A DNA stretch of 38,860 nucleotides from Planctomyces sp. (GTDB lineage Bacteria; Planctomycetota; Planctomycetia; Planctomycetales; Planctomycetaceae), in NCBI GenBank assembly GCA_005798445.1, contig SYJG01000015.1, forward strand, positions 1 to 38,860, given 5' to 3'. Position 1 is the stretch's first letter; every line of letters starts with the position of its first letter. The notes under the pieces are model-generated. The model ran no database searches. It was not told where the DNA came from and was given only the letters and a program-made list of their open reading frames with translations. Positions 6,880 to 29,200 of this stretch are shown one piece after another. A program made the translations under genes and the position numbers.

Positions 6880-7284
6880 TGACATCCTCCACGCTCTTTG
6901 CAGTCGTTTTGGAAATGGAGTTTGAAAACTCTCCATCCCAAGTTCACGTTCCTGGAGCAATATTTCAAACCTCCCACAGAGTGACTGGCACGCCGGGCTG
7001 TTTTTGGAACCACTTCAATCCATTTCTCGCGTCTCGCGAAAATTGCCGAAGTCGCGTTGACACGTTTTTGCGATTCGGTCTATCAATCGCTCGCTTGCTC
7101 GCCGCACGGCAAAATAAGCATCCCTTCTGGTGCCTCCCCTCCGCCCGTTCCGGGCAACTCCCCATGCAGTGTCGCGAACTTCGCTCCACTGCATCCTGTC
7201 TGAATTCGCCCTTCCCCTCCTTGAGTCAGCTTCTTGCATCCCCTCGTGACGGCATTCGTCCGTCGGAACCCCCGTCTGACTTTC
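6880..7284. other. Intergenic region upstream of the flagellar operon
   Basis: About 400 bases with no supportable gene; the overlapping short frames on both strands show no start signal. It should contain the promoter of the plus-strand flagellar genes. A TGGCAC at 6986-6991 recalls a sigma-54 -24 box but no matching -12 GC follows at the right spacing. No other element was recognised. Confidence 0.4.
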
Positions 7285-8772
7285 ATGGATCACGCCATGC
7301 ACTCAAGCCCATTCCGTCCCGACTTTTCATCCACAGGAGCAGTTGCTGGCCGACTGCCCTCCACCGCTCGCGTTTTGACGTGCATTTCGCACGCACCAAT
7401 CCGCTCGGCGATCGAGAGCTTTGCCGGAGCTGGCATCTCCTCCGAGCCGAATCGCTCGCTGGATCAAGCCACAGCACTGCTGCTGCGAGAGCCAACGCCG
7501 TTGGTCATCGTCGATGAGGCCACGTTGGCCGTCGCCAGTAGCACCGACAACGGATCGCGACCGATCCGAGATTTCGCGGCCGCCGTGCTGGGTAACAGCG
7601 GCTGCACGCAGTTGATTCTGATCGCCGCATCGAGCGACGCGAACTTGCTGCCAATCGGCCTCCGTTCTGAAGAAATCGCCGAGCGGTTGACGGTGCTCAG
7701 CGAACAAGAACTTTCCGGCACCGCGTTGAAGTCGATCATCGCGATGGCGATCCGACACGCCGATGCGCACCAATCACAACGTCAAACCGCGCGTCCGCAG
7801 ACGCAGGCCCATTCGCTTCGCGAAGTCCTGGGCGGCAGTCCCCGCATGGAAAAACTGTTCGAGTCGATCGACGCGGCAGCCGCATGCGACACGCCAATTT
7901 TGATCTGTGGCGAAGCGGGCACCGGCACCAGCTTGTTGGCGAACGCGATCCACGACGGCAGCTCGCGAGCGGCTCAGCCGTTCGTCCGAGTTCACAGCCG
8001 CTCGCTAACGCTCGAACAACTCAACGATTTGCTGTGCGTCGACGTCTCCGATACCGAAGTCGCCACGCTGCCACTCGACACGCCGACGCGACCTGCGGGA
8101 GGGACGCTGTTTCTCGACGAGTTCGACGAGTTTCCGGTTGCGTTGCAGAAGCCGCTCTGTCGCTTCGTTGCTCGACAACAGGAGTTGGCGGAAGGGTCGC
8201 AAGGTCGGCATCGCTCGATCGTCCGCATCATTGCATCGACGCATCAGAATCTCGATCTGCCGACGCGACAAACGCTCGGCCTGGAAATCCTCGTCCGTGG
8301 ATTGAACGCCGAGCGACTGCTCGTGCCGCCGGTTCGCGAACGTCCGGAAGACATCGCGCCGCTAGCCGAGCAATTCTTCATCCGCTGGGCGTTGCAGGAA
8401 GATCAGCCCCGCCCGCGACTGACCCGCAACTCGCTGGAATTTCTCAAAGAGCACCTCTGGCCCGGAAACCTCCGCGAGCTGTACACGGTCTTGCGAAACA
8501 CCGCGATCGTCGCGAACGGCAACGACATCACCGCCGACATGCTGCAAACGTGGCTCGCGAAAACCGAGACCCCGGACGGCACCGAAGTTCCGCGCATGAC
8601 GCTCGCCGACATGGAGCGGCAGCTCATCGAAACCACGTTCACTCGCTGCGGCGGCAATCGCGAGAAGACCGCCAGCTCACTCGACATCGGCCTCCGCACA
8701 CTCTCCGGCAAGCTCCGCGAATACGGCTACCCGCCGCGCGGTGGGCCAGGGTCAAATCTCAAAGCAGCGTAG
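7285..8772 (+). CDS. Sigma-54 activator-like AAA+ protein with Fis-type HTH, degenerate ATPase motifs
   Basis: 495 residues from the ATG at 7285 (an upstream in-frame ATG at 7234 is possible; neither has a clear Shine-Dalgarno). Residues about 28-160 look like a receiver-type fold without a clear phospho-Asp pocket. Residues 181-425 are the AAA+ core: GEAGTGTS (209-216) in place of GESGTGKE, so the Walker A Lys is Thr; GGTLFLDEF (272-280) as Walker B; RERPEDI (351-357); and WPGNLREL (392-399). The GAFTGA sigma-54 contact loop is missing; the segment before Walker B is short and unrelated. Residues about 438-482 are a Fis-type HTH (GGNREKTASSLDIGLRTL). It resembles FlrC/FlgR-type flagellar regulators by position, first in a flagellar operon, but probably cannot remodel sigma-54 holoenzyme. 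It may act as a DNA-binding regulator only. Confidence 0.85.
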   Translation: MDHAMHSSPFRPDFSSTGAVAGRLPSTARVLTCISHAPIRSAIESFAGAGISSEPNRSLDQATALLLREPTPLVIVDEATLAVASSTDNGSRPIRDFAAAVLGNSGCTQLILIAASSDANLLPIGLRSEEIAERLTVLSEQELSGTALKSIIAMAIRHADAHQSQRQTARPQTQAHSLREVLGGSPRMEKLFESIDAAAACDTPILICGEAGTGTSLLANAIHDGSSRAAQPFVRVHSRSLTLEQLNDLLCVDVSDTEVATLPLDTPTRPAGGTLFLDEFDEFPVALQKPLCRFVARQQELAEGSQGRHRSIVRIIASTHQNLDLPTRQTLGLEILVRGLNAERLLVPPVRERPEDIAPLAEQFFIRWALQEDQPRPRLTRNSLEFLKEHLWPGNLRELYTVLRNTAIVANGNDITADMLQTWLAKTETPDGTEVPRMTLADMERQLIETTFTRCGGNREKTASSLDIGLRTLSGKLREYGYPPRGGPGSNLKAA

Positions 8773-8825
8773 GACGGACACTCTTGTCCGCCCTGATTTT
8801 TCGGACGGGCAAGAATGCCCGTCCT
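8771..8825. repeat. Bipartite palindromic (REP-like) element between regulator and fliF
   Basis: Two small hairpins (CGGACA-CTCT-TGTCCG and GGACGGGCA-AGAA-TGCCCGTCC) are themselves arranged as an imperfect inverted repeat of about 23 bases with a short AT-rich spacer. The last two bases of the upstream stop codon are the first bases of the element. Such GGACGG/CCGTCC doublets look like a dispersed planctomycete intergenic family; only one copy of this type is in the window. Confidence 0.65.
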
Positions 8826-8883
8826 GCCAACTGGCCGTCACGGACGACGGCTTCACCCGACCAGGCTGCAGGGCAGCGCGTTC

Positions 8884-10596
8884 ATGGACGAATTGCGACG
8901 ACACGCGGCCCCACTCGTTGATCGTTGGCAGCGACTCACTCGCGGCCAACGGATCGCGATGGCCGCCGTGCTCGTCGCCAGCGCGGTCGGGTTTTCCTTT
9001 CTACTGAGCCGCCCCGCCGAAAACTGGCAGCCGATCGCCGATGGCCGCGAGTTCTCCACATCGGAGCTTGCTGCCATCCAGTCCGCTTGGAAACAAGCTG
9101 GCCTCAAATCGTTTCGCCGAGATGCTCGCAAATTGCTCGTGCCATCAGCGGACGTGGCCCGCTACACGGCCGCACTTCCGAAATCTCATCGCGACGACGA
9201 TGACTCTGGCGACGAACGCAGGCCGTCATTTGCGAAGGCCAACCTCTTCGCCAGTCACGAGCAACTTGAGCAACTCAAAGATCACGATCTGCGCGACACT
9301 CTGCGGCGACACCTCAAGGCCATTCCCGCCATCGCCGATGCCGACGTGATTTGGGCACGCGGTAAAGGTCGCTCTGCTTTCGCGAGCCGCTCCAAAGTCA
9401 CCGCCACGATCAGCGTTCTGCCGCGAGACGGACACGACCTCACGCCCGAACTCGCTCAGTCGCTCCGCACCGCAGTCGCTGGCATGGTCCCTGATCTAAG
9501 CGCCGACGACATTGTCGTGCTTGACCAATCAACCGGTCTCACCATTTCCGATGACTCCAGCGTTGTGATCGCCGAACAACGCCGCCGACAGCACGAGCGA
9601 CTCGCTCGACAACTCGAATCGCGGATCGCTGCAGCTCTTGCTCACATTCCCGAGACGACCGTGCAAGTCAAGCTGGTCGAAGTGCCTCGTCCGACGAACC
9701 GCCACACAACTGCGAAACCGAACTTCGGTTCGGCAATCGTCTGGGCCACCGAATCGTCCGACAATTTCGTCGAGTTCTCGCCGCTCATCGATGCGGGCAA
9801 CGACACAGTTCCGAATTCAACCGTGGCTGACTTCGCGACCGCATGGCATGTCGAGATTCAGATCCCGCAAGCGTCATTCGATGCTCGCGTCGCTCAACAA
9901 CTGCTGACTGCCGAGCATCGGATGACCAACCCCGATGCTCTCTGTGACGCCGAGTACGCTCGACTGCAACTGCTCGTCCGGAACCAGCTCCCGCCCGACG
10001 CGACGCTCGCCGAGTTGTCGATCACTCCAATCACCGTCACACCGGCGACAACTCCGCAAGTTGCTCCGTTCACTGCTTGGCCGCACGTCGTCTGTGGATT
10101 CTTCGCTGTCCTGTGTCTCACGATGACTGTCCGCAATTGGCGAGCGGAGGGTGTCAACCCTCCGATTAACGATTCGACATTGGTGATCGAAGACCTCGGA
10201 GGGTTGACACCCTCCGCTCGCCAGGACGAAGTCACGATCCTCGCACCGCCCCGACCGGCCGAATCGCTCACGGACCTCGCACGCCTGCAACAGCTCGATC
10301 CGCAAACCCTCGCCGATGCGCTGCGTCAAGAGCGTCCGCAAGCCATCGCCGTTTTGCTAACTCGATTTCCAACGCGGCTCGCCTCGGCGTGTTTGTCGCG
10401 GTTTGCGTCGTCGCTGCAGACCGACGTGATCCGTCGGCTCAAGTCGCTCGTCGAAGTCCCTGAAGAACTCGTCGCGGAAATCGCCCACGCCGTCTGCGAA
10501 CGGATGACTCCCGCTGCCGAGCCGATCGCACACGAACCGACCAACCGCATCGCCCACCTGCTGCCCGAAACTCCAACGCAGAGGGCCTTCGCATGA
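8884..10596 (+). CDS. fliF: Flagellar MS-ring protein FliF fused to a FliG middle domain
   Basis: 570 residues. A transmembrane helix at about 24-42 is followed by two ring-building motif regions of the YscJ/FliF type: about 45-95, then about 120-225 with ADADVIWARGKGRSAF, ATISVLPRDGHDLT and VPDLSADDIVVLDQSTGL. A more variable periplasmic region and a second helix (about 398-415) follow. The cytoplasmic tail does not end as a FliF: residues about 465-541 read as a FliG middle domain (LQQLDPQTLADALRQERPQ, then AVLLTRFP and VIRRLKSLVEVPEEL), with ERPQ at the position of the EHPQ motif that contacts FliM. The FliG torque domain is absent. A palindromic repeat is inserted in frame at residues 419-447. 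The start at 8884 has AGGGCAG upstream; a longer frame from 8815 would begin inside the palindromic element. The stop overlaps the fliH start (ATGA). Confidence 0.85.
   Translation: MDELRRHAAPLVDRWQRLTRGQRIAMAAVLVASAVGFSFLLSRPAENWQPIADGREFSTSELAAIQSAWKQAGLKSFRRDARKLLVPSADVARYTAALPKSHRDDDDSGDERRPSFAKANLFASHEQLEQLKDHDLRDTLRRHLKAIPAIADADVIWARGKGRSAFASRSKVTATISVLPRDGHDLTPELAQSLRTAVAGMVPDLSADDIVVLDQSTGLTISDDSSVVIAEQRRRQHERLARQLESRIAAALAHIPETTVQVKLVEVPRPTNRHTTAKPNFGSAIVWATESSDNFVEFSPLIDAGNDTVPNSTVADFATAWHVEIQIPQASFDARVAQQLLTAEHRMTNPDALCDAEYARLQLLVRNQLPPDATLAELSITPITVTPATTPQVAPFTAWPHVVCGFFAVLCLTMTVRNWRAEGVNPPINDSTLVIEDLGGLTPSARQDEVTILAPPRPAESLTDLARLQQLDPQTLADALRQERPQAIAVLLTRFPTRLASACLSRFASSLQTDVIRRLKSLVEVPEELVAEIAHAVCERMTPAAEPIAHEPTNRIAHLLPETPTQRAFA
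10138..10223. repeat. Perfect 28-bp inverted repeat inserted in the fliF reading frame
   Basis: Arms 10138-10165 and 10196-10223 are exact reverse complements, separated by 30 bases. Each arm carries its own small palindrome, GGAGGGT-GTCA-ACCCTCC. The element is translated, giving residues about 419-447 of the FliF/FliG protein, just after the second transmembrane helix where the two domains join. Its structure is the same kind (doublet of hairpins) as the intergenic element at 8771-8825, though the sequence differs. Confidence 0.85.
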
Positions 10597-11174
10597 CCAC
10601 CACCACACGCATCCTCAAAGCCGATCCGCGTAACAACGTCGCAAGTCGAGTCCGATTGACCGACCTTTCCGAGCCGATCGGCCCGCGTTTCGACTCTTCT
10701 GCCTTTGAGCCGTTGACACTTCCAACCGGACTGTCGCCGCGTTGCGAACCACGTGCGGATACCCGACTGGAGTCCGCACTTGCCGCGCTGCAACTTGCCG
10801 CCGATCGACTGCACGCTCAACGAGACCATTGGCTCGATCAGAGCCAACACGAGGCCGTCCGACTCGGAGTTGCCATCGCCGAACGCCTGCTCCGTCGGAC
10901 GCTCGACGTTCAGCCCGAATCTATTCTCGATTTGATTCGCTCCACCCTCGATTGGTCCGTCGGCGAGGATCGCCTGCGAGTCCGCCTACACCCCGTCGAT
11001 GCGGAACTGGTTGCGTCCGCGACACAACCACTCGATGCGAACCGCGAAATTGAATTCCTCCCCGACGACTCACTCGCGCGCGGCGATTGCGTGGTCGAGA
11101 CACCGAGCGGCCAGACAGACGCACGGCTCGAAGTCGTTCTGCAACGTATCGCCGACGAACTGCTCGCGGAGTGA
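10593..11174 (+). CDS. fliH: Flagellar assembly protein FliH
   Basis: 193 residues. FliH is the peripheral stalk of the flagellar export ATPase, binding FliI and the export gate/C-ring. The call rests on position (directly after fliF/G and before fliI), on an alpha-helical stretch at about 55-110 (RLESALAALQLAADRLHAQRDHW, then HEAVRLGVAIAERLLRR) and on the FliH/V-ATPase-E-like C-terminal half with LHPVDAELV, FLPDDSLARGDCVVETPSG and TDARLEVVLQRIADEL. The ATG overlaps the preceding stop by four bases, implying translational coupling. The N-terminal 50 residues are poorly conserved, as usual in this family. Confidence 0.85.
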   Translation: MTTTTRILKADPRNNVASRVRLTDLSEPIGPRFDSSAFEPLTLPTGLSPRCEPRADTRLESALAALQLAADRLHAQRDHWLDQSQHEAVRLGVAIAERLLRRTLDVQPESILDLIRSTLDWSVGEDRLRVRLHPVDAELVASATQPLDANREIEFLPDDSLARGDCVVETPSGQTDARLEVVLQRIADELLAE

Positions 11175-11182
11175 ACTCAACC

Positions 11183-12487
11183 ATGCTCGCCTTTGCCGAA
11201 CGAGTTTCGGAAATCATCCCGGTCGGTCTGACCGGCCGAGTGACCCGTCTGAGCAGCCTGACCATCGCCGCCGCTGATTTTCCCGTCCCGGTCGGTGCGT
11301 TGTGCCGCGTCCATCGTGGTCCACAACGACTCGCCGAAGCGGAAGTCGTCGGCTTTCGCGAACAAGAAACGTTACTGCTCCCGCTCGGCGACATCTCCGG
11401 CCTGCGTCGAGGCGATTCCGTTTCGCTGAGAAACTCCGCACCGCAAGTCCGCGTCGGCGAGCAAATGCTCGGCCGAGTCTTCAACGCTCGCGGCGAGATA
11501 CTCGATGACGGCGACAAGCCTGCGCTGCCACATCGCCGTTCGCTGTACGGCACACCGCCCGCGTCGATGAGTCGGCCACGAATCACCGAACCGCTCGGCA
11601 CCGGCATCCGCGCGATCGACGCGCTGCTGACCTGCGGCAAAGGTCAGCGCGTCGGACTCTTTGCCGGCAGCGGCGTCGGCAAGAGCACCTTGCTCGGCCA
11701 AATCGCTCGCGGCAGCCAGGCGGACGTCAACGTCGTCATACTCGTCGGAGAACGTGGCCGTGAAGTCCGCGAGTTCCTCGAAAAAGCTCTCGGCCCCGAC
11801 GGCCTGCGTCGCAGCGTGGTCATCGTTGCAACGGGCGACGAAGCGCCGACGCTCCGCTTGCGAGCCGCGCAGTTCGGCACGGCCGTCGCCGAGTTCTTCC
11901 GCGATCAAGGCCGTGATGTGCTACTGCTGGTCGATTCGCTGACTCGCTTCGCTCATGCTCAAGGCGAAGTCGGCTTCGCCGCCGGAGAACCTCCCGCCGC
12001 TCGCGGATTTCCCCCCAGCGTTTTCAGTGTCCTGCCAAAGCTCGTCGAACGCACCGGCTACTCGGAGTCCGGCAGCATCACCGGCCTGTACACGGTCCTC
12101 GTGGACGGTGATGACTTCAACGAACCAATCGCCGACGCCGTTCGCGGTCTGCTGGACGGCCACTGGGTCTTGTCGCGACGCCTCGCCGAACAGGCTCATT
12201 GGCCGGCCCTTGATGTTCTCGCCAGCATCAGCCGCGTGATGCCCGACATCACTTCGCCCCAGCATCGCGCCACCGCTGACCAGTTCAAGCGAGCCCTGGC
12301 TGCGTATCGCCACCACGAGGACATGATCTCGGTTGGAGCCTACCAACCCGGCTCGCACCCACTGGTCGATGCCGCCCTCCGTGAGCGACTTCGCTGGACC
12401 GAATTCCTCCAGCAATCACTCGACCAGCCGACGGAACTTTCCGACACACTTACTTGGCTGCGACAGCTTGCCAGCAAACTCTCTTGA
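11183..12487 (+). CDS. fliI: Flagellum-specific export ATPase FliI
   Basis: 434 residues, close to the normal FliI length. It hydrolyses ATP to energise docking and unfolding of flagellar export substrates at the membrane. Visible signatures are Walker A GSGVGKST (162-169), GERGREV (189-195), Walker B VLLLVDS (246-252), GEPPAARGFPPSVFS (268-282) and GSITGLYTVLVDGDD (297-311), the T3SS-ATPase pattern rather than F1 beta. The ATG at 11183 is preceded by GGAG at 11 bases and lies 8 bases after the fliH stop; the longer in-frame start at 11087 would overlap fliH by 88 bases. The phase is intact and all catalytic residues are present. Confidence 0.95.
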   Translation: MLAFAERVSEIIPVGLTGRVTRLSSLTIAAADFPVPVGALCRVHRGPQRLAEAEVVGFREQETLLLPLGDISGLRRGDSVSLRNSAPQVRVGEQMLGRVFNARGEILDDGDKPALPHRRSLYGTPPASMSRPRITEPLGTGIRAIDALLTCGKGQRVGLFAGSGVGKSTLLGQIARGSQADVNVVILVGERGREVREFLEKALGPDGLRRSVVIVATGDEAPTLRLRAAQFGTAVAEFFRDQGRDVLLLVDSLTRFAHAQGEVGFAAGEPPAARGFPPSVFSVLPKLVERTGYSESGSITGLYTVLVDGDDFNEPIADAVRGLLDGHWVLSRRLAEQAHWPALDVLASISRVMPDITSPQHRATADQFKRALAAYRHHEDMISVGAYQPGSHPLVDAALRERLRWTEFLQQSLDQPTELSDTLTWLRQLASKLS

Positions 12488-12510
12488 AAACTCTCTTCGG
12501 GAACTTTGCG

Positions 12511-12963
12511 ATGTCGTCGTCCTCGCCTTGGTTGGCCACTTTGCTGCGAATTCGCGAGTATCGCCGAGGCACCGCAATGCAGTCGCTCGCTCAAAGCTTG
12601 CAAGCGGCCACGACGATTCGCCACACGAGCAACAGCGTTGAATCCCTGCTCTCATCTCTAGGGCAAGTCCAGCAGAAGATCGGCCACGCCGGACGGCTGG
12701 ACTCAGAGCGGTTGCAGCAGATTCGCCAAGACCGCGATGATTTGAAATCACGATTGGCGGATATCCGCAGCGAGCAGAAAGTCGCCGATGACGCAGTCCA
12801 AGAAGCTCAGGCCCACGCAGCCACCAAAGACGCAGAAGCCGAAGTCCTGCGGCGTCTGCAAGATCGGCTCGACTCCGCCCGCCGGCAGGCTCAACGACGA
12901 CGCGATGAACAATCTCCGCTGGAGGCCGTCGCTTCACTTTGCAACGGGCGGCATTCCGGCTAA
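12511..12963 (+). CDS. fliJ: FliJ-like coiled-coil flagellar export chaperone
   Basis: 150 residues, mostly charged helix. Residues about 10-135 form a long coiled coil (LATLLRIREYRRGTAMQSLAQ at the start, then repeated LxxIRxxRDDLKSRLADIR and LRRLQDRLDSARRQAQRRRDE). FliJ is the gamma-like central stalk of the FliH/FliI export complex. Sequence conservation in FliJ is low, so the call depends on size, coiled-coil character and its place directly after fliI (23 bases). The start at 12511 has CGGGAA upstream. It is the last flagellar gene visible in the operon. Confidence 0.75.
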   Translation: MSSSSPWLATLLRIREYRRGTAMQSLAQSLQAATTIRHTSNSVESLLSSLGQVQQKIGHAGRLDSERLQQIRQDRDDLKSRLADIRSEQKVADDAVQEAQAHAATKDAEAEVLRRLQDRLDSARRQAQRRRDEQSPLEAVASLCNGRHSG

Positions 12964-13601: not shown

Positions 13602-13994
13602 GGTCAGGCTCCTTTTTCCTGCGGGTGAACGACGGAGGGAAGTGGTTTGGTTTCCGGGAAGTCCGTTCGTTCGTGTTTACTCTGGCCGAGTGATAGGCAG
13701 TCGCAGTGCCAAGTTTTCAAAAATTTCGCTGATGTCAAACTTTCTGTGATGAGCGACAATTTCCAGCCAGAAATCGCGAAACGAGCCAGCCAGAGACTTC
13801 AGAGACACGTCGCTGGTTGCCTTGCCATGATCTCGTCTGTCATCCCGAAGTGTCACCGGTCATCGTCCTGACGACGCTTTCGAAGGCAAGCCGAACAAGA
13901 ACGTGGGGCACTCAACGAATCAGGTTCGATTCGCGTAAACTCTTCCGTGGCTCGCAGTGATCGACGGGCCGCCTCTGAATCAAAAGGACCAACC
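13602..13994. other. Intergenic region between two divergent genes
   Basis: 393 bases between the minus-strand Gly/Tyr-rich gene and the plus-strand zinc protease gene. It must hold both promoters. The short frames inside lack start signals. I see no clear promoter motif, repeat or RNA gene. Confidence 0.4.
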
Positions 13995-14684
13995 ATGTTT
14001 TTCGGCTTCAAACTGCTGATCTTCACGTCCCCTGCGATCCTGCTGATGTTGTGGGCTCAATGGCGAGTCAAATCGGCCTACCGCCACGGGATGCAAGTTC
14101 CCGCGCCGCTCAGTGGAGCCGCAGCGGCGCGCCACATCCTCGATAACTCCGGGTGCCACGAGGTCGGCGTGGAGGTCGCGCAGGGCTGGTTGTCGGACCA
14201 TTATGATCCGAGTTCGCGAGTACTCCGACTCAGCCCTGAGGTTTATGAAAGCCACACGGCCACTGCCGTCGGTATCGCTGCTCATGAAGCGGGACACGCA
14301 ATCCAGCACGCGAACCACTATGCCCCTCTTGTTGCGAGAAACTTCGCCGTTCCAGCGGCTCAGTTCGGTGGCCCGGCCTTTATGATCCTGTTGATCCTGG
14401 GAATCGCACTGTCCAGTCTCAAATTGATCTGGCTCGGTATCGCCTTCTTCGCTTGTACGACGCTCTTTCAGATCATCAATCTGCCCGTCGAGATTGACGC
14501 CAGCAACCGTGCGAAGCGACTGTTGGGACAACTCAGCATCGTCGATGGCGAGGGGGCAATCGCCGTCCGTAGCGTTTTGAACGCCGCTGGCTGGACCTAC
14601 GTTGCCGCGACGCTGGAATCGTTCCTGACTCTGATCTACTACCTGATCCGTTTCGGCGTGCTGTCGAGTTCTCGCGACGATTGA
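13995..14684 (+). CDS. YugP-like neutral zinc membrane metallopeptidase
   Basis: 229 residues, the usual size of the YugP family (Pfam Zn_peptidase_2). The zinc site HEAGH is at 97-101 after GIAA, and the third ligand is probably Glu166 in NLPVEIDASNRA. Transmembrane segments are seen at about 4-21, 125-160 (two helices) and 205-222. The order is the family pattern: N-terminal anchor, soluble catalytic part with DHYDPSSRVLRLSPEVY, then the membrane bundle. AAGGA is 6 bases before the ATG at 13995. Substrates are unknown for the family. The 3' end is only 15 bases from the end of the convergent methyltransferase gene. Confidence 0.9.
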   Translation: MFFGFKLLIFTSPAILLMLWAQWRVKSAYRHGMQVPAPLSGAAAARHILDNSGCHEVGVEVAQGWLSDHYDPSSRVLRLSPEVYESHTATAVGIAAHEAGHAIQHANHYAPLVARNFAVPAAQFGGPAFMILLILGIALSSLKLIWLGIAFFACTTLFQIINLPVEIDASNRAKRLLGQLSIVDGEGAIAVRSVLNAAGWTYVAATLESFLTLIYYLIRFGVLSSSRDD

Positions 14685-15761: not shown

Positions 15762-16396
15762 GGACGATGAGACGAAGGCGTCTGCAAGAACCAGTGGATG
15801 AGGTTGAAGTCGGTGACGAATTGCGGAATCAAGATCAGGGCCAACAACAGGACATAGCCGAATCGGCTGAACGAGTTCCACAGCGGTCGCCAGCCAGCAG
15901 GCATCAGGGAATCGACCACGCGGCTGCCGTCGAGCGGCGGGATCGGCAGCAGGTTGAAAAATGCGAGAAGCAGATTCAGCGCCATCACGTTCGACAACCC
16001 TTCAAGAATCTCTGCATCACCGAATTGAGCAGCCACCAAGAGCTTCAGCAGCAGCCAGCAGAGTCCCGCGAGACAGAAATTCGAGATCGGCCCCGCGATC
16101 GCGACGATCAGAACTCCGAGCTTCATGCTGACGTTTCGGCGAAATCGGATCGGATTGATCGGAACCGGCTCGGCCCAACCGAACGGGATGCCCAGCAGAG
16201 GCAACAGAACGGTGCCGACCGGGTCGATGTGTGCCAGCGGATTGAGCGTGTTGCGGCCGAGCAGCCGGGCCGTGTCGTCTCCCAGCCACGAGGCGCTGGC
16301 AGCGTGTGCCCACTCGTGAACCGTGATCGACAGGACCAACGGAATCCACCAGATCAAGCGTTCGATGATCAAGTCCTGCCACACGGAGCACCTCAC
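15758..16396 (-). CDS. Site-2 protease family (M50) intramembrane metalloprotease, short form
   Basis: 212 residues, no PDZ domain. HEWAH at 27-31 in the first helix gives two zinc ligands and the catalytic Glu. The second motif, NLLPIPPLDG at 148-157, supplies Asp156. GPISN at 102-106 is also family-typical. Four or five membrane segments are visible (about 10-30, 58-75, 92-122, 137-155, 178-195). The enzyme cleaves transmembrane segments of substrates inside the membrane, typically in regulated proteolysis. It starts inside the stop of the FtsH-like gene (ATGA overlap, 16393-16396) and its own stop overlaps the methyltransferase start, so three genes are coupled. Confidence 0.9.
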   Translation of the reverse strand: MRCSVWQDLIIERLIWWIPLVLSITVHEWAHAASASWLGDDTARLLGRNTLNPLAHIDPVGTVLLPLLGIPFGWAEPVPINPIRFRRNVSMKLGVLIVAIAGPISNFCLAGLCWLLLKLLVAAQFGDAEILEGLSNVMALNLLLAFFNLLPIPPLDGSRVVDSLMPAGWRPLWNSFSRFGYVLLLALILIPQFVTDFNLIHWFLQTPSSHRP

Positions 16397-17916
16397 GCAA
16401 AGCTCGGCCCACGTCCGAGACTGCGATCCACCTTCACGTCGTCAGCGGTGATGGCCGTCGTACCGTCAAGCGTTTCCATCTGGATGACTTGTCCTTTCGG
16501 AATCACAGTCGGCTGCCCATCACTGGTCCGACGCAGTTTTAGGAAACAGGGATCAACCCAGACGACTTCCCCTTCGACGGTGGAGTTGTCCTGGAGGGTC
16601 ACTCGGACAACCGCCCGCCCGGTCGGTTCCGCGAGCTGCGTGGTCGCCTCGAACAGCACGGCATCGAAGGCATCAATCGACTTTCGATGCTGCCGTCGCG
16701 ACTCGAGAGCCTGACGAAAATCGTCGAGCTGAATCTTGGTCGGCTCGCCGTTACCGCGAGATCGTCGTACCGCGAAGAGAGCCGCGTCGTTCGCTAGCCC
16801 TTCGAGGTCCGCACCGGAGCTGCCGTCGGTCCAGTCAGCGACTTCGCCGAGCGGCAGCCCCTCGGCCAGCGGCTTCGACCGCACATGAATCTGGAGCACC
16901 GCGACTCGTTCTTCACGAGTGAGCGGCGGAATCGGAATGCGGCGGTCGAAACGGCCGGCTCGCACAAGGGCTTTGTCGAGAATGTCGGCCCGATTCGTCG
17001 CCGCGATGACGACCACACGATCGAACGCCTCGAAGCCGTCCATGCAGACCAAAATTTGATTCAGCGTTTGCTCGCGTTCCTCGTTTGCAAAGCCGGCTCC
17101 CGATCCACGCCGCCGTCCGATCGCATCCAGCTCGTCGATGAATAACACGGCCGGAACGTTCTTCTTCGCCGTCTCGAACATGTCCCTCACGCGAGCCGGG
17201 CCGACACCGACAAACATCTCCACGAACTCCGACGCCGACGTGTAATAGAACTTCGCCTCAGTCTCCCCTGCGACCGCCTTCGCCAGCAACGTCTTGCCGC
17301 AGCCCGGCGGACCTTCCAGCAACACGCCACGCGGCAACCGAGCACCCGCATCAATCCACCGCTGTGGTGACTTCAGAAAATCCACGAGGTCTGACAACTC
17401 CTGCTTCGCCTCGACGCACCCGCCAACATGGTCGAACTTCACCTTGCTCGTTTCCTCCGCCAGCCGAGCCTTGCTGTTCCGCAACGCAAAGATGTTCTGT
17501 CCCTGAGCACCGCCGACCTTCTTGATGAACCAGAACAATCCAACAAAGATTCCGACCAAGAGAAGTCCGTAGATCGCCAGCTCTGTCCAGGGATTCGATG
17601 ACGGTCGCTGAGACACGCCATTCTCCGGCGGTTCGTAGTAGGCGTCCGCTTCTGCGAGTCGTTTCATCAGGTCGGCGTTGTGCCTTGTTGCGGTCAAAAA
17701 CCGGCCGGGCTGATCCAGCTTTCGGAAGACGATTCGGCCTCGGTCCAATGTCCAGCTCTCGATTTCCTTTCGGTCCAGTGCCTGTCGAAAGAACTCGTCG
17801 GAGACTGGAGTCGGGGTCTCGCGTTCCGTCTTCGCTCCGCGACTTGCGACGAGCACCACAAACAATCCGATGAAAAAGCACCAGAAAAGAAACGTCTTCG
17901 ATTTCGATTTCATCAT
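16393..17916 (-). CDS. FtsH-like membrane AAA+ ATPase lacking the M41 protease, with a C-terminal Sm-like barrel
   Basis: 507 residues. FtsH topology is kept: helix at about 8-24, extracytoplasmic domain 25-108, helix 112-131, then the AAA+ module with Walker A GPPGCGKT (202-209), pore loop FVGVG (235-239), Walker B VLFIDE (257-262), ATNRAD and arginine fingers in RAGRFDR (319-325). After the AAA lid (about 400) the HEAGH zinc-protease domain of FtsH is absent. Instead residues about 434-483 read like an Sm/LSm fold: L-x-D at 441-443, VEGEVVWVD (447-455) and LKL as Sm1, then IPKGQVIQM (472-480) as Sm2. It is therefore an unfoldase or extractase without its own protease. The start at 17916 lies 30 bases after the esterase gene; only a weak AGAAAG is upstream. 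The C-terminal fold is inferred by eye; an SH3-like barrel is the alternative. Confidence 0.85.
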   Translation of the reverse strand: MMKSKSKTFLFWCFFIGLFVVLVASRGAKTERETPTPVSDEFFRQALDRKEIESWTLDRGRIVFRKLDQPGRFLTATRHNADLMKRLAEADAYYEPPENGVSQRPSSNPWTELAIYGLLLVGIFVGLFWFIKKVGGAQGQNIFALRNSKARLAEETSKVKFDHVGGCVEAKQELSDLVDFLKSPQRWIDAGARLPRGVLLEGPPGCGKTLLAKAVAGETEAKFYYTSASEFVEMFVGVGPARVRDMFETAKKNVPAVLFIDELDAIGRRRGSGAGFANEEREQTLNQILVCMDGFEAFDRVVVIAATNRADILDKALVRAGRFDRRIPIPPLTREERVAVLQIHVRSKPLAEGLPLGEVADWTDGSSGADLEGLANDAALFAVRRSRGNGEPTKIQLDDFRQALESRRQHRKSIDAFDAVLFEATTQLAEPTGRAVVRVTLQDNSTVEGEVVWVDPCFLKLRRTSDGQPTVIPKGQVIQMETLDGTTAITADDVKVDRSLGRGPSFA

Positions 17917-20202: not shown

Positions 20203-23200
20203 TTAGGGAAAGGCCGTGAGGAGGTCCTCGAGACGTGTGAAGAACACCACATCGTTGAACAGGCCGTCCTCGTTCTTTTCACCAATCGCGGGGTTGATGA
20301 AGGAATCGAGTGCTTGTCCGCCCAACAAGACGTCGGTCCCGGTGTCCCCTTGAAGGCTGTCGATGCCCTCCTCGCCTGACAGGATGTCGTTGCCGTTGCC
20401 GCCGATGAGTTTGTCTTTCCCTGCTCCTCCGAGGACCGTGTCGTTGCCGTCCTGGCCGTTGAGCTGATCGTCGCCGGCACCGCCACTGATGATGTCGTCG
20501 CCGCGCGAACCGAGCGGATCCGTTTCGAGATCGCCGGTCCCTCCCAGGATCGTGTCTTTGCCGTCTTCGCCCAGCAGCACGTCGTCGTCCGCTCCGCCGT
20601 CGATGGAATCGTTCCCGGCACCACCTCGGATCGTGTCATTACCGGCCGAGCCGAAGATTTTGTCATTGTCCGCTTCGCCGTGCAGGCGGTCATTGCCCTC
20701 GCCGCCGACCATGTTGTCGTGTCCGGCTCCGCCGCGCAGTTCATCGTTTCCACTGCCCGCATCGAGACGGTCGTTACCGGCTCCACCCAGCAAATTGTCA
20801 GCCCCGCCGTTGCCCGTCAGCACGTCATTTCCCGCGCCGCCATCCAGCAAGTCGTTGCCCTCTCCGCCAACCGCCTGGTCATTGCCAACACCGCCCAGGA
20901 AGTGATTGGCACCGCCGCCTCCCAAGAAGTTGTCGTTCCCAGCTCCGCCGTCGAACGTCACCGCGAAATTCACGCGACTTGCATCCAAGCGATCCGCACC
21001 ATTGGCACCCTCGAATCGGAAGCTCTCCGAGTAGCCATTGAGCGAACTATCCAGGACGACCACGTCCGCCGCACTGCTACCGATAATCTGCACGCTCGAA
21101 ATGCCACTCACGGGTCGTGGTGTCATCACCTCCGTGCCGTTGGCTTTGCGGATATGCAAATTGTCATTCACTTGCAGGACCGTGAACGGGCCTCCGGACT
21201 TTGGCAACGTGACCACCAGAGGAGTGCTGGGGATCACCTCGACGGGATCGAGCGGATTCAAGCCACCTGGCCCTGGGTTGTTCGAACCGCTCGGTGGTGG
21301 GTCAAAGTTCCCCACCAGTGGAGTCGCAATCCTCGAGCCGAACTGCGCGTACAAATCCACGCCTAGCGGCTTCGGAGAGAATTGGTGGTTCAGTGCACCG
21401 GCCGTTCCGGCAGCGGCGTCGGCCGGGATTGACTGGAAGATGTAGAACTCGGACCCTGCATTGTTGGACGAAACACCGTCGCGGTGCGGCACCATCAGGC
21501 CGATGTCGTCGATACCGTCCAGGTTGAAGTCACCGGCGAACGGTCGTTCGAGAACACCAGGGAACAGCGGTGTTTGCCCCAACGCCACGGTCGCATTGAA
21601 TTGAATGGTGTAGTCCGAGTTGCCGTCGCGAACTCCGGGTGTCCCGTCCGCTGCTGTCGTGAGGTCGAACGCAAACACGTTCGTGTCCGCGCGGTGGACA
21701 CCGAGATCATCCAAGCCGTCACCGTCAAAGTCGCCGACGATCGGCAAACCACGCAAGTTGCCGGTGAATCTCTGGTCGCTGGAATCAATGTTGTTGTTGT
21801 TGTTCGTGTCGAAGTACCAGGTCGTCCCGTCGAACAACCCGATTTCATCACCAACATGCGCCAGGTTGAAGTCGCCAGCGATCGGCCGCCCGTTGATCTG
21901 CAATCCACTGACGACCGAATGATCTGGCCGGCCGTCATTCGTGAAATCGAGCAGCCAGCGATACTGGTTGTTCAGTTTTCCGTAGGCACCGATCCGATCG
22001 AAGCCGTCCTGCGTGACAGCCCCTGGCAAGTTGAACTTGCCGGCGAAGAGGGCATCCGTGTTGACGCCCATGTCGAAGACGAGATCGCGATTGACGAAGT
22101 CCGTGTTGGTCGGATCGAAGTGGAAGTTCCCGTTGATATCGATGCTGGCTCCACCTTGTCCGACGCCGCCAATTTCCACACGGCTGTCGATCGTGAAGCG
22201 GGCGATGAAATCGCCACCTGGCTGGCCGTCGCCGCTGGGGAACGTGGGTGTTTCCAGCGGTTGGGTCGCATTGCTTTCGCCATCCAACTTGTTCCCCACG
22301 TCGTCCACGACATCGTCGTTGATCGTCAACGTGTAGCGGTCGTCGAGCAACGGAGAGTCGAACGTCAACAACACGCGGCCCGTGGCCAAGCCGGGGGCCG
22401 TCAGATCGTCAATGAACGTGATCGTCGAGATGGGGACGATCCCGTTCGCATCACCGCGCAACACATAGTGTCCGGGGTTCTCAGCAACCAGCGGATTGAG
22501 GGCCGGGTTCGGGAATCCCGTCGTGCGGCTCGGGAAGTCGCGGAAGGAAATCGTGAGTCCGTCCGTTCGCGGTGTCGGGACCGGCCGTGGTATCTGGCCC
22601 ACAAGGGACTTCGGATCGAACAGGTCGTAGGCCAGTGCCGACGTGATTTGCACGTTCGTCACTTGCGGACCCTGCGTGTCGACGAAGATATCGAGAGCCT
22701 GTGCCAGCACCGGGGCCGCAGGATTCAGATTACCAGCCACGTCTTCCGCCGTGACGAGAATTCGTCGCAGGCCATCGACCGGGAAGAACGTCGGATTGTT
22801 CAGATCAACGGTGCTGGTCACTCGCCATTGCCCGTTCGGGAATTGGTTCGTGCCGTCTTCGGGCAGCGCCACCGTCAGCCCCAACAGGACGTCGAAGTTA
22901 TCGATCCCATCGGCGGGCGTCTGGTCAGCAAACACACGGATGATCGCGTTCGCTTCCGCCGTCCCCCAGAATGTCGGCGTCTGGTCGTTCGTCTTGTTGT
23001 CGATGAAGAACGTCGGTTGCGGGATCACTCCTTGGTCGGGAATCATGCCATCGTCAGCGATTGCGGAATTCCCGAAGAACACTGGCGGAACGATCGTGTC
23101 CACCACGATTTCCAGCGGCTGGCTACGGTCACCGAAGCCGGTATCCGTCGGCGTGGCCGGGTCGACGATCTGCACTTTGGCACTGATGAAGTGGCTGCCG

Positions 23201-26200
23201 TCGGTCAGGTTGCGATCGGCGGCGGAAATCGCGTCGTCAAAATCGAATCGATAGACGCCGTTGACCCCCGCGACCTTCGTAGCGAAACCAATCACGCGTT
23301 GTGGATCGACCGTCGGCTGTTGCGGGTCACCTTCGATGAAGATCGCTACGCGATAGCCCGGCGTCGTGCTGGTCAGAGTCAGATCCGTGTTGAACGGAAT
23401 CGGAATGTTCTGATCCGGCGGCGTTCCGGCGGTGCTGTTGCCCGGAAGGTCGTTCAGGAATTTCGCGTCATCCACGCGGAAGAAGATCGTCGGCGAGTTG
23501 TCGCGCGTGATGTTATCGACTTGTGAGCGCCCGGTGTCGCTGTTGGCCGGCGGCGGATCTCCCACCGGGGTATCCTGCAACTCCAGTGCATACGGGACTG
23601 GTGCCGGATCGTTGATGATCGTCATCGTGTAACCATTGACGGCATCCACCGCTCCACCCAGCACGCGGATGAAGTACGTCTCGCCCTCGACGGCCGGGAT
23701 GCGAACTCGCTCGTCGGAATCGCCCGCTCCTTCATTCGACCCGAAGGCTCCGGTACCAGCGATCACGGTTCCGTCGGAATCGAGCACTCTGAGATCAAGG
23801 TTGCCGTTACCTGGCACCAAGCCGTTGAGATCCTTGAAGTAGACCTGCACATCGAGAGTGCCCGTCGTCTGGGCCACGACTCGGAAGTAATCCGTGTCCT
23901 GCGGCACGCCGACGTGCTCGGACGAATTCGGGAAGATGGCCAGGTTGTCAACACTGATGTTGCGACCCGATCCCAGGAACGTCGCCGTGGTTCGGAATTC
24001 GTTCGATTCCGAGTTGTCCGGGCCGAGGATGAGGAGATTCGCATCATCGACATCGGAGTTGGTAAACGGCACGTTGGCCGTCACAACCTCGGTGTTCGTG
24101 TAGGCGATGTTTGGGCGACGGACGCTGTTCTGGTAGACGAGGACATTTCCCGCGTCCGGAGTCCGGCTTTGTCCGACGATCACGAAGTCCGTGGCCGCGA
24201 GGGAAATCGGATTACCCGCACCATCGAGGTTGGTAATTACCAAGGCGTCACTGGCCTGCGGCGATCCGCCGTCGATGTCGATGAACAACCCGTTGCCGAC
24301 CGCTGCGTCCGGCACGACGTGGAAGGTATCACCACCATCGCGTCCCTGAACCCTGACCGCTTCGATGATGCCGCTGGTCATGCCGGCCGGAAGCGCCGCG
24401 ACGTTGTTGTGCAGCGTCACATCTCGCAGTGAGGCAACGACCGCCGCTGGGAAGCCGAAGCTCTGGACATCAACAGCCACGACGCGGGTCAGGCTGTTGA
24501 CGCGGATTCGATCGCTGCCATTCGTCCCTTGAACAATGACCTCGTCGGCGAATCCGCCCGCGCCCAAGAGGCTCGCGGCACCACCGCCGCCGGTGATCGT
24601 GAACGTGTTCGTGCCCTGGACCACATTGTCGAAGTGGAACACCGTCGAGATGCCGGCGGCCGTGAAGGTGCCGGAATCGGTGTTGGTCGGCGTATAAGTG
24701 ATGACGTCATCCAACCGCGTGCCCGCCACGAACAAGTCTTCCGTAACGGCGTTGATGTTCGCGGTTTCGATTCCCGAGAGCGTCACCGCTCCCAGACCCA
24801 CCTGCCGGATCGTTTGAGTCACATCGGCAACGGTCGTGTTGGAATCCAATTCGACGACGATGTCGTTCGGACCTGCATCGAGAGTGTTGCGGGTGAAGTT
24901 GAGCGTGTCGCTCGCGCCCGGTCCCTCGCCGGCCACGGTGATCTCCACCGTCCCCGTTCCATCGTCCACAGTGAGATCGATAATCGGTGTGATGTTGAAT
25001 CGGTCATCGCCATCCAACCCGGACAGAATGAAGTTCTCGACCTGCGTCGTGGTCAGTGGGATGCGGTTATTGAGCAGGAGGCTCGATGTGCCGGCCACGC
25101 CAAACGTGTCGCTGATTGGTGTGCCGAGAGCGATGAGTGTGTCGTCGGTGGCACCGTCGCCATCCAGTGCCGTCGAACCGGTCGCGCCGAGATTGGTGTA
25201 GTCGATCGCCAATAGCGAATTGACCGCCACCTGACCGGCGTCCGCCACCACGGCGGGCGTGTGCAGGAACACATCGTTGGCCGCTGTGCCGTTGACGGTC
25301 AGCGTTTCGTTGTCCGTTTCGCCGCTGTAGCTCAAGTGCTCGGATTCCACGATCGTGATCGTGACTCCGGCGACCGTGAACGTGCCGCCGTCCGCGGCCG
25401 TTGGCGAGTACACCGGGGCATCCACCGTGCCATCGATGCCGGTGATCGAAACCGAATCGCCGCCGCTGGACGCCGGCAGGTCGCCATCAATCGTGATGGC
25501 CGTGCCGAGGTTCGCGACGTTCACATCCACATCGATGTCGTCATCGCCCGACGAGCCTGACAGCGTGACGCTGACAAAGTCGTTGTATTGGAAGGCCGGG
25601 CCATCGTTCACGCTGACGCTGAAATCGTTGACCCCAGTTCCGATCAACGTGAGATCGTCATCCGCGTTGGTTCCATTGACGGTCAGAGCGGCACCGGCCG
25701 GAACGGCCGTGATCGTGCCCCCTTCGATTTCGTCGAAGGTGATGTTTGTTGACGCGGTCGTGGCCACGACGAACGATCCGGAATCGACATCTGGTCCCGG
25801 CGTTCCAACGACCGAAGCCGGAGTCGTGATCGACAGCGTGTCGCCGACGGCCCCAATCGGGTTACCGCCCAGCACCGTGTAATCCAAACCGCCTGCCGCC
25901 AGCAGAGTCAGGCTGACCGTGTCGGAACCATCACCGGCTTCGACACGCACCTGTTCCATGTTGCTGATGTTGTGCGTACCCGCCGACAAACCACCGGTCA
26001 CTGTGGCGGTTCCCGTCGTATGGACGACACCCAGCGTTTCGCCCGCGGCCGTGCCGCTGACGAGGATCGTGTCGGTGTCGGTACCGCCGTCGATCGTGTT
26101 GACGCCACCGCGGCCGTCGATCACGTCGTCCCCCGCGTCACCGTTGATCGTATCGTCACCCGTGCCGCCGATCAGCGTGTCATTTCCCGTCCCACCAATC

Positions 26201-29200
26201 AGCGTCGCATCGGCCGACAGGTAGTCGTTCCCCTGGCCACCGGTCAGCGAGATATTGACCTCGGCTTCCACGCCGCTCACTGCCTTGATGTTGTCGTCAC
26301 CGTCGTTGCCGTTGACGGTCAACGTGTCGTTGCCCGCTCCGTCGAGCAGATTGTTGACCTGCACGGTGTAGGCCAGGCCCACGACGTTGACCGTGTTCGA
26401 GCCAGCCGTCGGCGTACTGATCAGCAGGGTGTCGTTCGCGTCCCGACCGTTGACGATTACCGAATCCGCGTCGCCCGTGGTCACGTCGATGACCAATTGT
26501 TCGAGTTCGGTTTCCGTGACGTCGTTGACTGTGATCGTGTCACCGCCCGTGCGGCCGGTCACAAACACCTGTTCGACGCCGTGCGTATCGACCGTGGCAG
26601 CGCCCAGAGTCGTGTTCAGGTGCGTGCCCGCCGCACCTCCCGTGACCGTGATCGCGTCGGCGGTCGCGTCGCTGCCGAAGAACCGCAGAATGTCTGCGCC
26701 ATCGTCACCGCCTTGCACCACGTCGCTGCCGTCAAGCGGTTCCCACACGAACTGGTCGATGCCGTCGCCGCCAAACATAAAGTCCGCGCCCGCATCGTCC
26801 GCCGTGCCGTTGCCAGCCGTCGTCGCATCGCCGAACAAATCGTTGCCAGCTTCGCCATATTCGTGATCCGCGCCCGCACCACCGATGATCGTGTCGTTGC
26901 CGTTGCCACCGTAGATCGAGTCGATCACGTTTCCACCCGTGAGCGCGTCATTCCCGTCCCCGCCGAAGATCGTCATCGCAGCCGTCACCGTCGCGTCCGC
27001 CGTCACCGTGTCGTTGCCAGATCCCGCATCGACCGTCGTGCCCGTTGTCACTCCCGTCAGAGTGATCGTGTCATTCCCGTCGCGGGAATTCACGACCAGC
27101 GATTCCGACGATCCGTCGTAAGTGATCGTCTTGAAGCCGGTGTGGCTGATCGTCGTCCCCGTGACGGCGATCGTGTCAGCGATCGAGGTGCCGTTGTAAA
27201 CCAGCGTGTCCGCCGCGCCCGCGCCGCCGGCCACCGTCAGCGTGCCGCTGGTCGTGGCATTCACAACGGGCGACAGGCCGTTGGCCTGAATCGTGGCCGT
27301 ATCCGCCAGCGTCGAGGAATTCACTGTCAACGTGTCGTTGCCGTCTTCTCCCTGGACCGTGATCGCGCCCGCACCGTTCGCCACGTTGGCGACTTCCACA
27401 CCGCTCAGATTCACCGTACCGAGTGCGCCGCCGCTCACTGTCGCGTCCGTTGTGGTCACCGGGATGATTCCCAGTGTGGCAGTGACTGCGGTCCCGTCGC
27501 CCGTCAACGTCGCCACGTCCGTGTTCGACGGGGATCCGCCATTCAAGTTCACCGTCGTGTAACCGTGACCGCTGCTGACCGCGAACGAGTCGTCTCCCGC
27601 CAGACCATCCAGGGTCAACGTCGCCAAGTTCGTCCGAGTGATGTTCACCCGGCCGTCAACCGTCAGATTCGCCGCGCCCAACACAAACGCGTTGTTGCTG
27701 TCCGTCCCGTGAGCCACCAGGCTCGCACCATCCAGGTTCAACGTCTCGCCTGAGCCCAAGTTCGTGAAGCCAATCGGCAGTGAGTCCGCCAACAATGTTC
27801 CCGATCCCGCCGCCGCGCCGGGCGTGTAGTCGTAGGCCGTCGAGCCCGTCACGGTCAGGGTGTCCGTCCCACCCAATGCGTCGATCGACAACGATTCCAA
27901 CGTTCCGTAGGTAATCGCGGCCGAGGTGCCCACCGTGATTGTCGTCCCCGTCACCGCGATCGTTTCACCAGCCGTCGTCGCTTCCACCTGCAACGTATCA
28001 CCAACGTTCCCCGTCGGGCTCTGACCATTCACCGCCACCGTCGTCGTCAAATCCGTTCCCGTCAGGTAGCTCACCGTCACATCATCATCACCAGCGCCAC
28101 CATTCAGAGTCGCCGAGTTGAAGTCCGTGAACGTCACCGTTTGGCCGTCCACGCTCACAGTGAAATCATCCCCGCCCGTCTGAGTCAACGTGAGGTCGTT
28201 GTCCGCGGAATCGCCGTTGATCGTCGCCGCATTGCCAGCCACAGACGTGCCGTCCACCGTCAACGATTCCACATGGTCGAAGCTCACCAAGCCTGTGGCT
28301 CCCCCAATCGTGAAGCTCCCAGAATCCGATTCCGGCCCCGCGTCAAACGTCACACTGTTCGCGCCCGCAGAAATCGTCAACGCGTCACCAGTGCCAATCG
28401 GATCGCCGCCATCAAAACTAATCGGAATCGTGATGGCACCGTTGGTGCTGTCCACCGTGAGGCTGTCGCTGCCGGCCAAGCCTTGGACCAAGATCTGTTC
28501 AACGCCGGAAGTTGCGATCGGTCCTCCGAGGAAATTGGTGTAGGTCGTCGTCAGGCTGTTGATCGTTTCCACCAGATGACCGGTGGCGTTGAGCGACAGT
28601 GAAATCGCATCGGTGCCCGAGGTACCGCGAGAGAGAATCACGTCGCCTAAGGTCGTTCCAGCGCCGATGGCATCGGTGCCGCCACCGCCAACGAATGTGT
28701 CATCGCCCGCGCCGCCATCCATCGTGTCGTTGCCGGCACCCCCTTCCAAGAAGTCGTTTCCGTCGTTGCCGTTGAGCGTGGCGTCGGCAGACAGGTAGTC
28801 ATCCCCCTGGCCGCCATTGAGCACGATGTTGACCTCGGCTTCCACGCCGCTCACTGCCTTGATGTTGTCGTCACCGTCGTTGCCGTTGACGGTCAACGTG
28901 TCGTTGCCCGCTCCGTCGAGCAGATTGTTGACCTGTACGGTGTAGGCCAGGCCCACGACGTTGACCGTGTTCGAGCCAGCCGTCGGCGTACTGATCAGCA
29001 GGGTGTCGTTCGCGTCCCGACCGTTGACGATCACCGAATCCGAATCGCCCGTTGTCACGTCGATGACCAATTGCTCGAGTTCGCTTTCCGTGACGTCGTT
29101 GACCGTGATCGTGTCACCGCCCGTGCGGCCGGTCACAAACACCTGTTCGACGCCGTGCGTATCGACCGTGGCAGCGCCCAGAGTCGTGTTCAGGTGCGTG

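Follow-up and report, generated by a model that had tools for sequence, protein, structure and literature searches.

What is the function of a membrane-bound, FtsH-like ATPase that carries no M41 protease domain and ends instead in what is likely an Hfq-type Sm barrel? This question is raised by a gene on a 38,860 nt stretch of DNA from Planctomyces sp. (contig SYJG01000015.1 of assembly GCA_005798445.1), which was analysed at its full length and is termed the window. The gene encodes a protein, termed AAA-Sm here, in which an FtsH-like ATPase is joined to an Hfq-like barrel (Table 1). It is directly followed by a gene for a putative M50 (site-2-type) intramembrane metalloprotease.

Table 1. 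Features of the AAA-Sm gene and its M50 neighbour, in window coordinates.
Feature	Position	Strand	Details and basis
AAA-Sm coding sequence (FtsH-like ATPase and Hfq-like barrel)	16393..17916	-	507 aa, ATG start; ORF and profile scans
Transmembrane segment 1, residues 5-29	17830..17904	-	Hydropathy; model helix 3-26
Extracytoplasmic region, residues 30-108	17593..17829	-	Hydropathy; weak FtsH_ext match
Transmembrane segment 2, residues 109-137	17506..17592	-	Hydropathy and model
AAA+ ATPase core and lid, residues 154-405	16702..17457	-	PF00004, PF17862; key motif residues retained
Long predicted helix from lid to barrel, residues 397-428	16633..16728	-	Model; conserved stretch in 4/4 orthologues
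Hfq-type Sm barrel (likely fold), residues 434-484	16465..16617	-	Profiles, model and Foldseek
C-terminal tail, residues 485-507	16396..16464	-	Model confidence mostly low
M50 (site-2-type) intramembrane metalloprotease, 212 aa	15758..16396	-	PF02163, E = 3.4e-12; HEWAH, NLLPIPPLDG

The ATPase portion of AAA-Sm follows the plan of FtsH (TIGR01241, M41). The two proteins share a pair of hydrophobic segments, located in AAA-Sm by hydropathy, as well as an AAA+ core (Pfam AAA, E = 4.4e-42, plus AAA_lid_3), which is ~49-59% identical to the FtsHs listed in one comparison, and the key ATPase and pore residues. A motif script placed Walker A (GPPGCGKT) at residues 202-209, the pore loop (MFVGVG) at 234-239, FIDELDA at 259-265, ATNR at 306-309 and RAGRFDR at 319-325. 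An alignment with 21 FtsH rows shows the key positions of Walker A and B, the pore loop, sensor 1 and the arginine fingers to be invariant; the rows are a low-redundancy pick from 65 sequences taken from the best 80 of 302 loci. The part between the hydrophobic segments gives a weak match to FtsH_ext (PF06480; residues 12-80, E = 0.033, 14.8 bits against a cut-off of 25.5). In contrast to FtsH, AAA-Sm has neither an M41 domain nor its zinc site. The TIGR01241 model covers residues 23-403 only, scoring 398.2 bits where 600 are needed, no HExxH motif was found by the script, Pfam reports no M41 (PF01434) match, and the C-terminus is occupied by the Hfq-type barrel. A displaced M41 domain was sought in the adjoining proteins, and the Pfam scan found none; the neighbouring protease belongs to M50. 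The original prediction of an FtsH topology with intact AAA+ motifs, lacking both HEAGH and an M41 domain, is borne out by these results.

That prediction had also placed a Sm/LSm-type barrel in the position of M41. When isolated, the C-terminal domain matches Pfam Hfq_1 (PF21979) with 27.2 bits (E = 4.3e-6; cut-off 27). Within the whole protein the same family matches residues 436-478 with 23.8 bits (E = 4.9e-5), which is under this cut-off, and NCBIfam Hfq_rel_Cyano (NF047718) gives E = 2.6e-4 and 21.2 bits versus the 52 required. Because both profiles match, the likeness goes beyond mere motif resemblance, of which PKGQ at residues 473-476 (located by script) is a part. A model of the full-length protein, whose alignment holds as its 21 other rows FtsH stretches ending before M41, predicts strands at 436-441, 446-455, 458-461, 470-473 and 477-482, with confidence there mostly 47-78. 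In this model a continuous helix (397-428) runs from the AAA lid towards the strands, and its second half lies at what we take to be the position expected of the Hfq N-terminal helix. The linker stretch E-[AS]-T-[ST]-Q-L-A-E-P-T-G-R-A is common to all four orthologues described below.

Folded alone from its single sequence, the barrel is predicted to form five consecutive strands, with low confidence (mean pLDDT 52.8, pTM 0.41). A Foldseek search of this model against the PDB ranked an Hfq first (E ~0.015, probability 1.00), with no match at E 0.001 or better and modest TM-scores. The first-ranked chain is Caulobacter Hfq, and cyanobacterial Hfq is 17th. One Hfq superimposes over 45 columns at 1.4 Å, and most Hfq rows have an rmsd of 5-8 Å or more. 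By itself, this structural evidence for the predicted fold is moderate. Profiles, model and Foldseek results taken together indicate that the C-terminus of AAA-Sm is likely an Hfq-type Sm barrel, in line with the original prediction.

To establish how widely this architecture occurs, we used the barrel tail as a query against 170 genomes of the family. Five genomes match (the window's own, G033, G160, G162 and G119), and an order-level search (170 genomes) returned the same five. Intact AAA-Sm proteins are encoded by four of them, two of which belong to one genus (G160 and G162), while G119 holds a 112-aa fragment of the barrel region (L088/L098). The tail is absent from all 11 congeners. The window protein shares 49-52% identity with its three intact orthologues. 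Pairwise identity among the four orthologues is 63-82% in the AAA part and 40-56% in the barrel, and the extracytoplasmic part is fast-evolving at 16-39% (over residues 25-110). Third codon positions differ most in all six orthologue pairs and in both domains, a pattern that fits purifying selection, with the third positions being far diverged. In a tree of 36 rows that includes 12 of the 80 fetched loci and carries long-branch warnings, the AAA cores of the four proteins group in a single clade (support 99/99), separate from the two clades of family FtsHs. Because the architecture recurs in three other genomes, an assembly artefact is excluded.

In the samples searched beyond the family, no further AAA-Sm protein was found. 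Among 357 genomes of the class, a full-length profile scored the four AAA-Sm proteins at 847-916 bits and the next match at 398.5. In this set, further congeners of G160 and G162 gave FtsH-level matches only, and the distribution is patchy. The original prediction had proposed a search for the architecture across the phylum; it recurs in three more genomes of the family, and the full-length profile found no member beyond the four in 352 phylum genomes. The barrel profile likewise revealed no new AAA-Sm protein among 392 genomes of the phylum or 297 of the class, its three weak class matches being other barrel proteins; these class and phylum samples overlap, and at most 4-28 candidates were scored per genome, such that single cases may escape. 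Outside the family, genome contigs were covered by a profile scan that is dominated by the ATPase part and yielded 302 loci, the best 80 of which also constitute the whole of the barrel search in other phyla. An HExxH motif is present in the matching frame of 79 of these 80 fetched loci. The exception (L082), from which ambiguous residues had been dropped, groups with Lysobacteraceae FtsHs, and the barrel profile matches none of the 80. No relative was found on viral contigs, and plasmids gave no barrel match and 191 full-length matches, each at less than 60% identity. The AAA-Sm gene is real, is conserved with its neighbour and is rare in the sampled genomes.

The M50 gene was absent from the original prediction, and its presence changes the functional reading of the locus. 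In the window, the two genes overlap by 4 nt, where the M50 GTG start meets the ATPase stop codon. The gene lies directly downstream of the ATPase gene in all four intact cases, with a gap of ~200 nt in G160, and the two genes form a conserved pair. Like other M50 site-2 proteases (RseP, M. jannaschii S2P), the neighbour has HExxH and NxxPxxPLDG motifs and hydrophobic segments (by hydropathy). It differs from these enzymes in that a Pfam scan found no PDZ domain and in being paired with an AAA+ gene, and its activity is predicted from motifs. Proteases of the M50/S2P type are described in PMC12067869.

Members of this M50 subfamily (E<=1e-10) are present in six of the 170 family genomes, namely the four with an intact ATPase plus G062 and G063, and the catalytic HExxH and NxxPxxPLDG motifs are complete in all six. 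The overlap between genomes with the ATPase tail (five) and with the M50 gene (six) would arise by chance with a probability of 4.5e-7, a figure that treats the 170 genomes as independent, which they are not, and that serves as a guide only. In G062 (L127) and G063 (L126), the 11 kb fetched around the M50 gene contain no ATPase relative; these M50 genes may either reflect an ancestral state without a partner or have lost the ATPase. In G119, no M50 match was found in the genome and no ATPase relative upstream of the fragment in the fetched stretch; the 112-aa fragment is probably the remnant of a lost pair.

The explanation we favour is that AAA-Sm would form a membrane-anchored, FtsH-derived AAA+ ring that pulls on proteins in or near the membrane and unfolds them. 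Such a role is suggested because the ATPase is intact, the pore loop is of the protein-threading type and the protein has a membrane anchor. The M41 protease ring would have been exchanged for the Hfq-type Sm barrel, which on the cytosolic exit side would most likely bind proteins as a collar or cap and stabilise the ring. Peptide bonds would be cut in trans by the product of the adjoining downstream gene, the small M50 site-2-type protease, and the ATPase and M50 proteins together may constitute a two-gene, ATP-dependent membrane proteolysis unit. We assign this explanation as a whole a probability of roughly 0.45, slightly short of even odds. The data establish the domain order, the intact ATPase motifs, the loss of M41 and the conserved gene pair, and they make the Hfq-type fold likely; the hexamer, the stacking of the barrel ring, the contact with M50, the delivery of substrates to it and the nature of these substrates are all inferred.

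More tentative is the proposal that the pair is a split, ATP-powered intramembrane protease in which an FtsH-derived unfoldase, its M41 ring traded for an Hfq-type protein ring, feeds a separate M50 enzyme. The favoured explanation draws on the invariant ATPase residues, the separate clade, the adjoining M50 gene in four of four cases, its overlap with the ATPase gene in the window while other neighbours differ, the co-occurrence of the two genes over the 170 genomes, the complete M50 motifs in six of six, the lack of an M50 match in G119 with its barrel fragment, the evidence for the barrel and the precedent of Hfq docked on PilB1 (below). Evidence against it includes the M50 genes without ATPase in G062 and G063, the ~200 nt between the genes of G160, the small number of intact cases (four, two of them in one genus) and the modest scores for the C-terminal fold in model, Foldseek and Hfq_1 comparisons. 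Also, an exit-side Hfq collar by itself gives a substrate no path to an intramembrane active site, which also counts against the favoured explanation. Site-2 proteolysis is usually described without an ATPase, and we know of no M50 protease that needs one.

The M50 gene could instead be a co-regulated neighbour and nothing more, with AAA-Sm acting on its own, and without proteolysis, to dislocate membrane proteins or to drive translocation, in the manner of plant FtsHi/Ycf2. The absence of M41 and the intact ATPase motifs are consistent with such a motor. In a Foldseek search of the full model, E. coli FtsH ranks first and chains of the Ycf2-FtsHi motor occupy ranks 2-4. FtsHi1-5 and the Ycf2-FtsHi motor resemble AAA-Sm both in this structural match and in being FtsH-derived ATPases without protease activity, and FtsHi proteins act in ATP-driven chloroplast import according to PMC11266112. 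However, most FtsHi proteins retain an M41 region with altered zinc-site residues, as that article shows, whereas AAA-Sm has no M41 match; a table in the same article shows little M41 region left in FtsHi3. Furthermore, all four genomes have no neighbouring gene in common but that for M50, the others differing among them when ORF lists are read by eye without family scans, and the M50 gene overlaps the ATPase gene in the window. To our knowledge, FtsHi proteins have no M50 partner. We regard a motor acting without proteolysis as the leading alternative, but an unlikely one.

Little weight can be given to a second alternative, in which AAA-Sm would be a regulatory subunit that enters mixed hexamers with ordinary FtsH and there either dilutes the protease activity of FtsH or directs it. 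Mixed hexamers do occur among plant and mitochondrial FtsH relatives, and M41-bearing FtsH genes coexist with AAA-Sm. The window genome, which the original prediction had proposed to check for a separate FtsH, has M41 matches at three places, two of which are FtsH-like frames cut by contig ends (one still with part of the AAA domain), and M41 was found in all seven other genomes tested. But the AAA part of AAA-Sm is 45-56% identical to family FtsHs, two very divergent AAA rows aside, and falls in its own clade; the barrel takes the place of the M41 contacts; and the pairing with M50 would be left unexplained.

The third M41 place in the window genome is a short M41-like ORF with HEAGH and without an ATPase domain (L003, G000:C115). 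Similar ORFs are found in two congeners (L116 and L118 in G001, L117 and L119 in G004), the frames being 162-205 aa long, with L117 in a 365-aa frame. None of them is among the matches of G003, G033, G119, G160 or G162, and they accordingly do not track with the AAA-Sm fusion. G033 also carries a third, very divergent FtsH-like gene (L115, G033:C4), which has a HEAGH motif and sits on a long branch of the tree.

We consider it improbable as well that the C-terminus is some other small β-barrel (SH3-like or Rpp29-like) with convergent likeness to Hfq, serving as a generic adaptor domain. The low confidence of the barrel model (pLDDT 52.8) and the modest TM-scores leave room for such a domain, and 14 of the 50 Foldseek matches listed are not Hfq, including Rpp29 at rank 2, Tudor and designed barrels. 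Hfq chains make up the other 36 of the 50 listed, many of them from one entry. The remaining barrel copies, from the three other orthologues and the G119 fragment, score 17.3-19.4 bits against Hfq_1 (E 0.0012-0.0052), under the cut-off of 27, but Hfq_1 is the best Pfam family in all five copies and has no match in three other small-barrel proteins, although these three were scanned at full length and not as excised domains. The only match of the barrel profile among PDB sequences is Anabaena Hfq, at an E value of 0.27 that is not significant alone, with a shared VLW-D stretch. By sequence, cyanobacterial Hfq (PF21979, NF047718; 3hfn, 3hfo) thus appears to be the nearest type, as judged from NF047718 and this PDB match; it differs in being a free protein, whereas the AAA-Sm barrel is fused to an ATPase and its hexamer is conjectural.

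The collar had originally been conceived as binding RNA or peptide. The lysine-histidine pair of Sm2 belongs to the proximal RNA site of Hfq; in AAA-Sm the residue after the lysine is G in the window protein and H, S or A in the three orthologues, such that histidine is present in one of the four. Because this residue varies, and because cyanobacterial Hfq is reported in PMC10989914 to be without RNA-binding residues and to function in pilus formation with PilB rather than on RNA, RNA binding by the barrel is unlikely, and the RNA half of the earlier idea is weakened. A membrane-tethered, RNA-handling AAA+ machine, whose Sm ring would substitute for a missing Hfq, draws on the barrel's matches to Hfq families and on the result that none of the eight genomes searched has a PF17209 (Hfq) match above the Pfam threshold (one weak match in G162, E = 0.425), but with the same variable residue, the same report on cyanobacterial Hfq and a pore loop of the protein-threading type against it, we regard it as very improbable. 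With the barrel tail as query, a second copy turned up in none of these eight genomes.

PilB is a ring-forming ATPase. The closest functional parallel to AAA-Sm is the docking of cyanobacterial Hfq on the secretion ATPase PilB1, as reported in PMC4390875. FtsH-type AAA+ domains outside a protease context, planctomycetes included, are also found in the two-domain ATPases of vWA-MoxR ternary systems (eLife 2020, PMC7159879); these differ from AAA-Sm in having two AAA+ domains and vWA/MoxR partners, and the terms Sm-like, LSm and Hfq are absent from that text. The original prediction knew of no Sm fusion of this kind, and our search of the open-access literature (titles and abstract openings) found no description of the AAA-Sm fusion or of the ATPase-M50 pair.

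If AAA-Sm is an FtsH-derived unfoldase with an Hfq-type collar and an M50 protease cutting in trans, then the FtsH protease ring would be replaceable by an unrelated module compatible with six-fold symmetry, Hfq-type rings could serve AAA+ motors purely as protein collars, and site-2 proteolysis could be coupled to an unfoldase. We know of no earlier example of an AAA+ motor that is dedicated to a site-2 protease, nor of an Sm ring integrated into an AAA+ membrane motor; AAA-Sm would then be the first of each. The ATPase-M50 gene pair is small enough to be expressed and tested as a unit.

Several other observations were made on the window and on related proteins. An anti-phage role for AAA-Sm was considered; the PADLOC matches (IetA, TRIP13) are confined to the ATPase region. 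The window also encodes a putative neutral zinc metallopeptidase at 13947-14684 on the plus strand (PF04298, E = 5.4e-72). At 7234-12963, on the same strand, ORFs that by eye resemble a sigma-54-type regulator, FliF, FliH and FliI would make up a flagellar gene cluster. A 6204-aa ORF on the minus strand (20203-38817) has long repeat runs and, near its C-terminus, repeats of the GGxGxD type (hemolysin-like, calcium-binding) when read by eye, and its product is likely a giant secreted protein. Finally, three large proteins that look secreted by eye (L091, L092 and L093) contain internal small-barrel segments with weak likeness to the Sm profile and without Hfq_1 matches.
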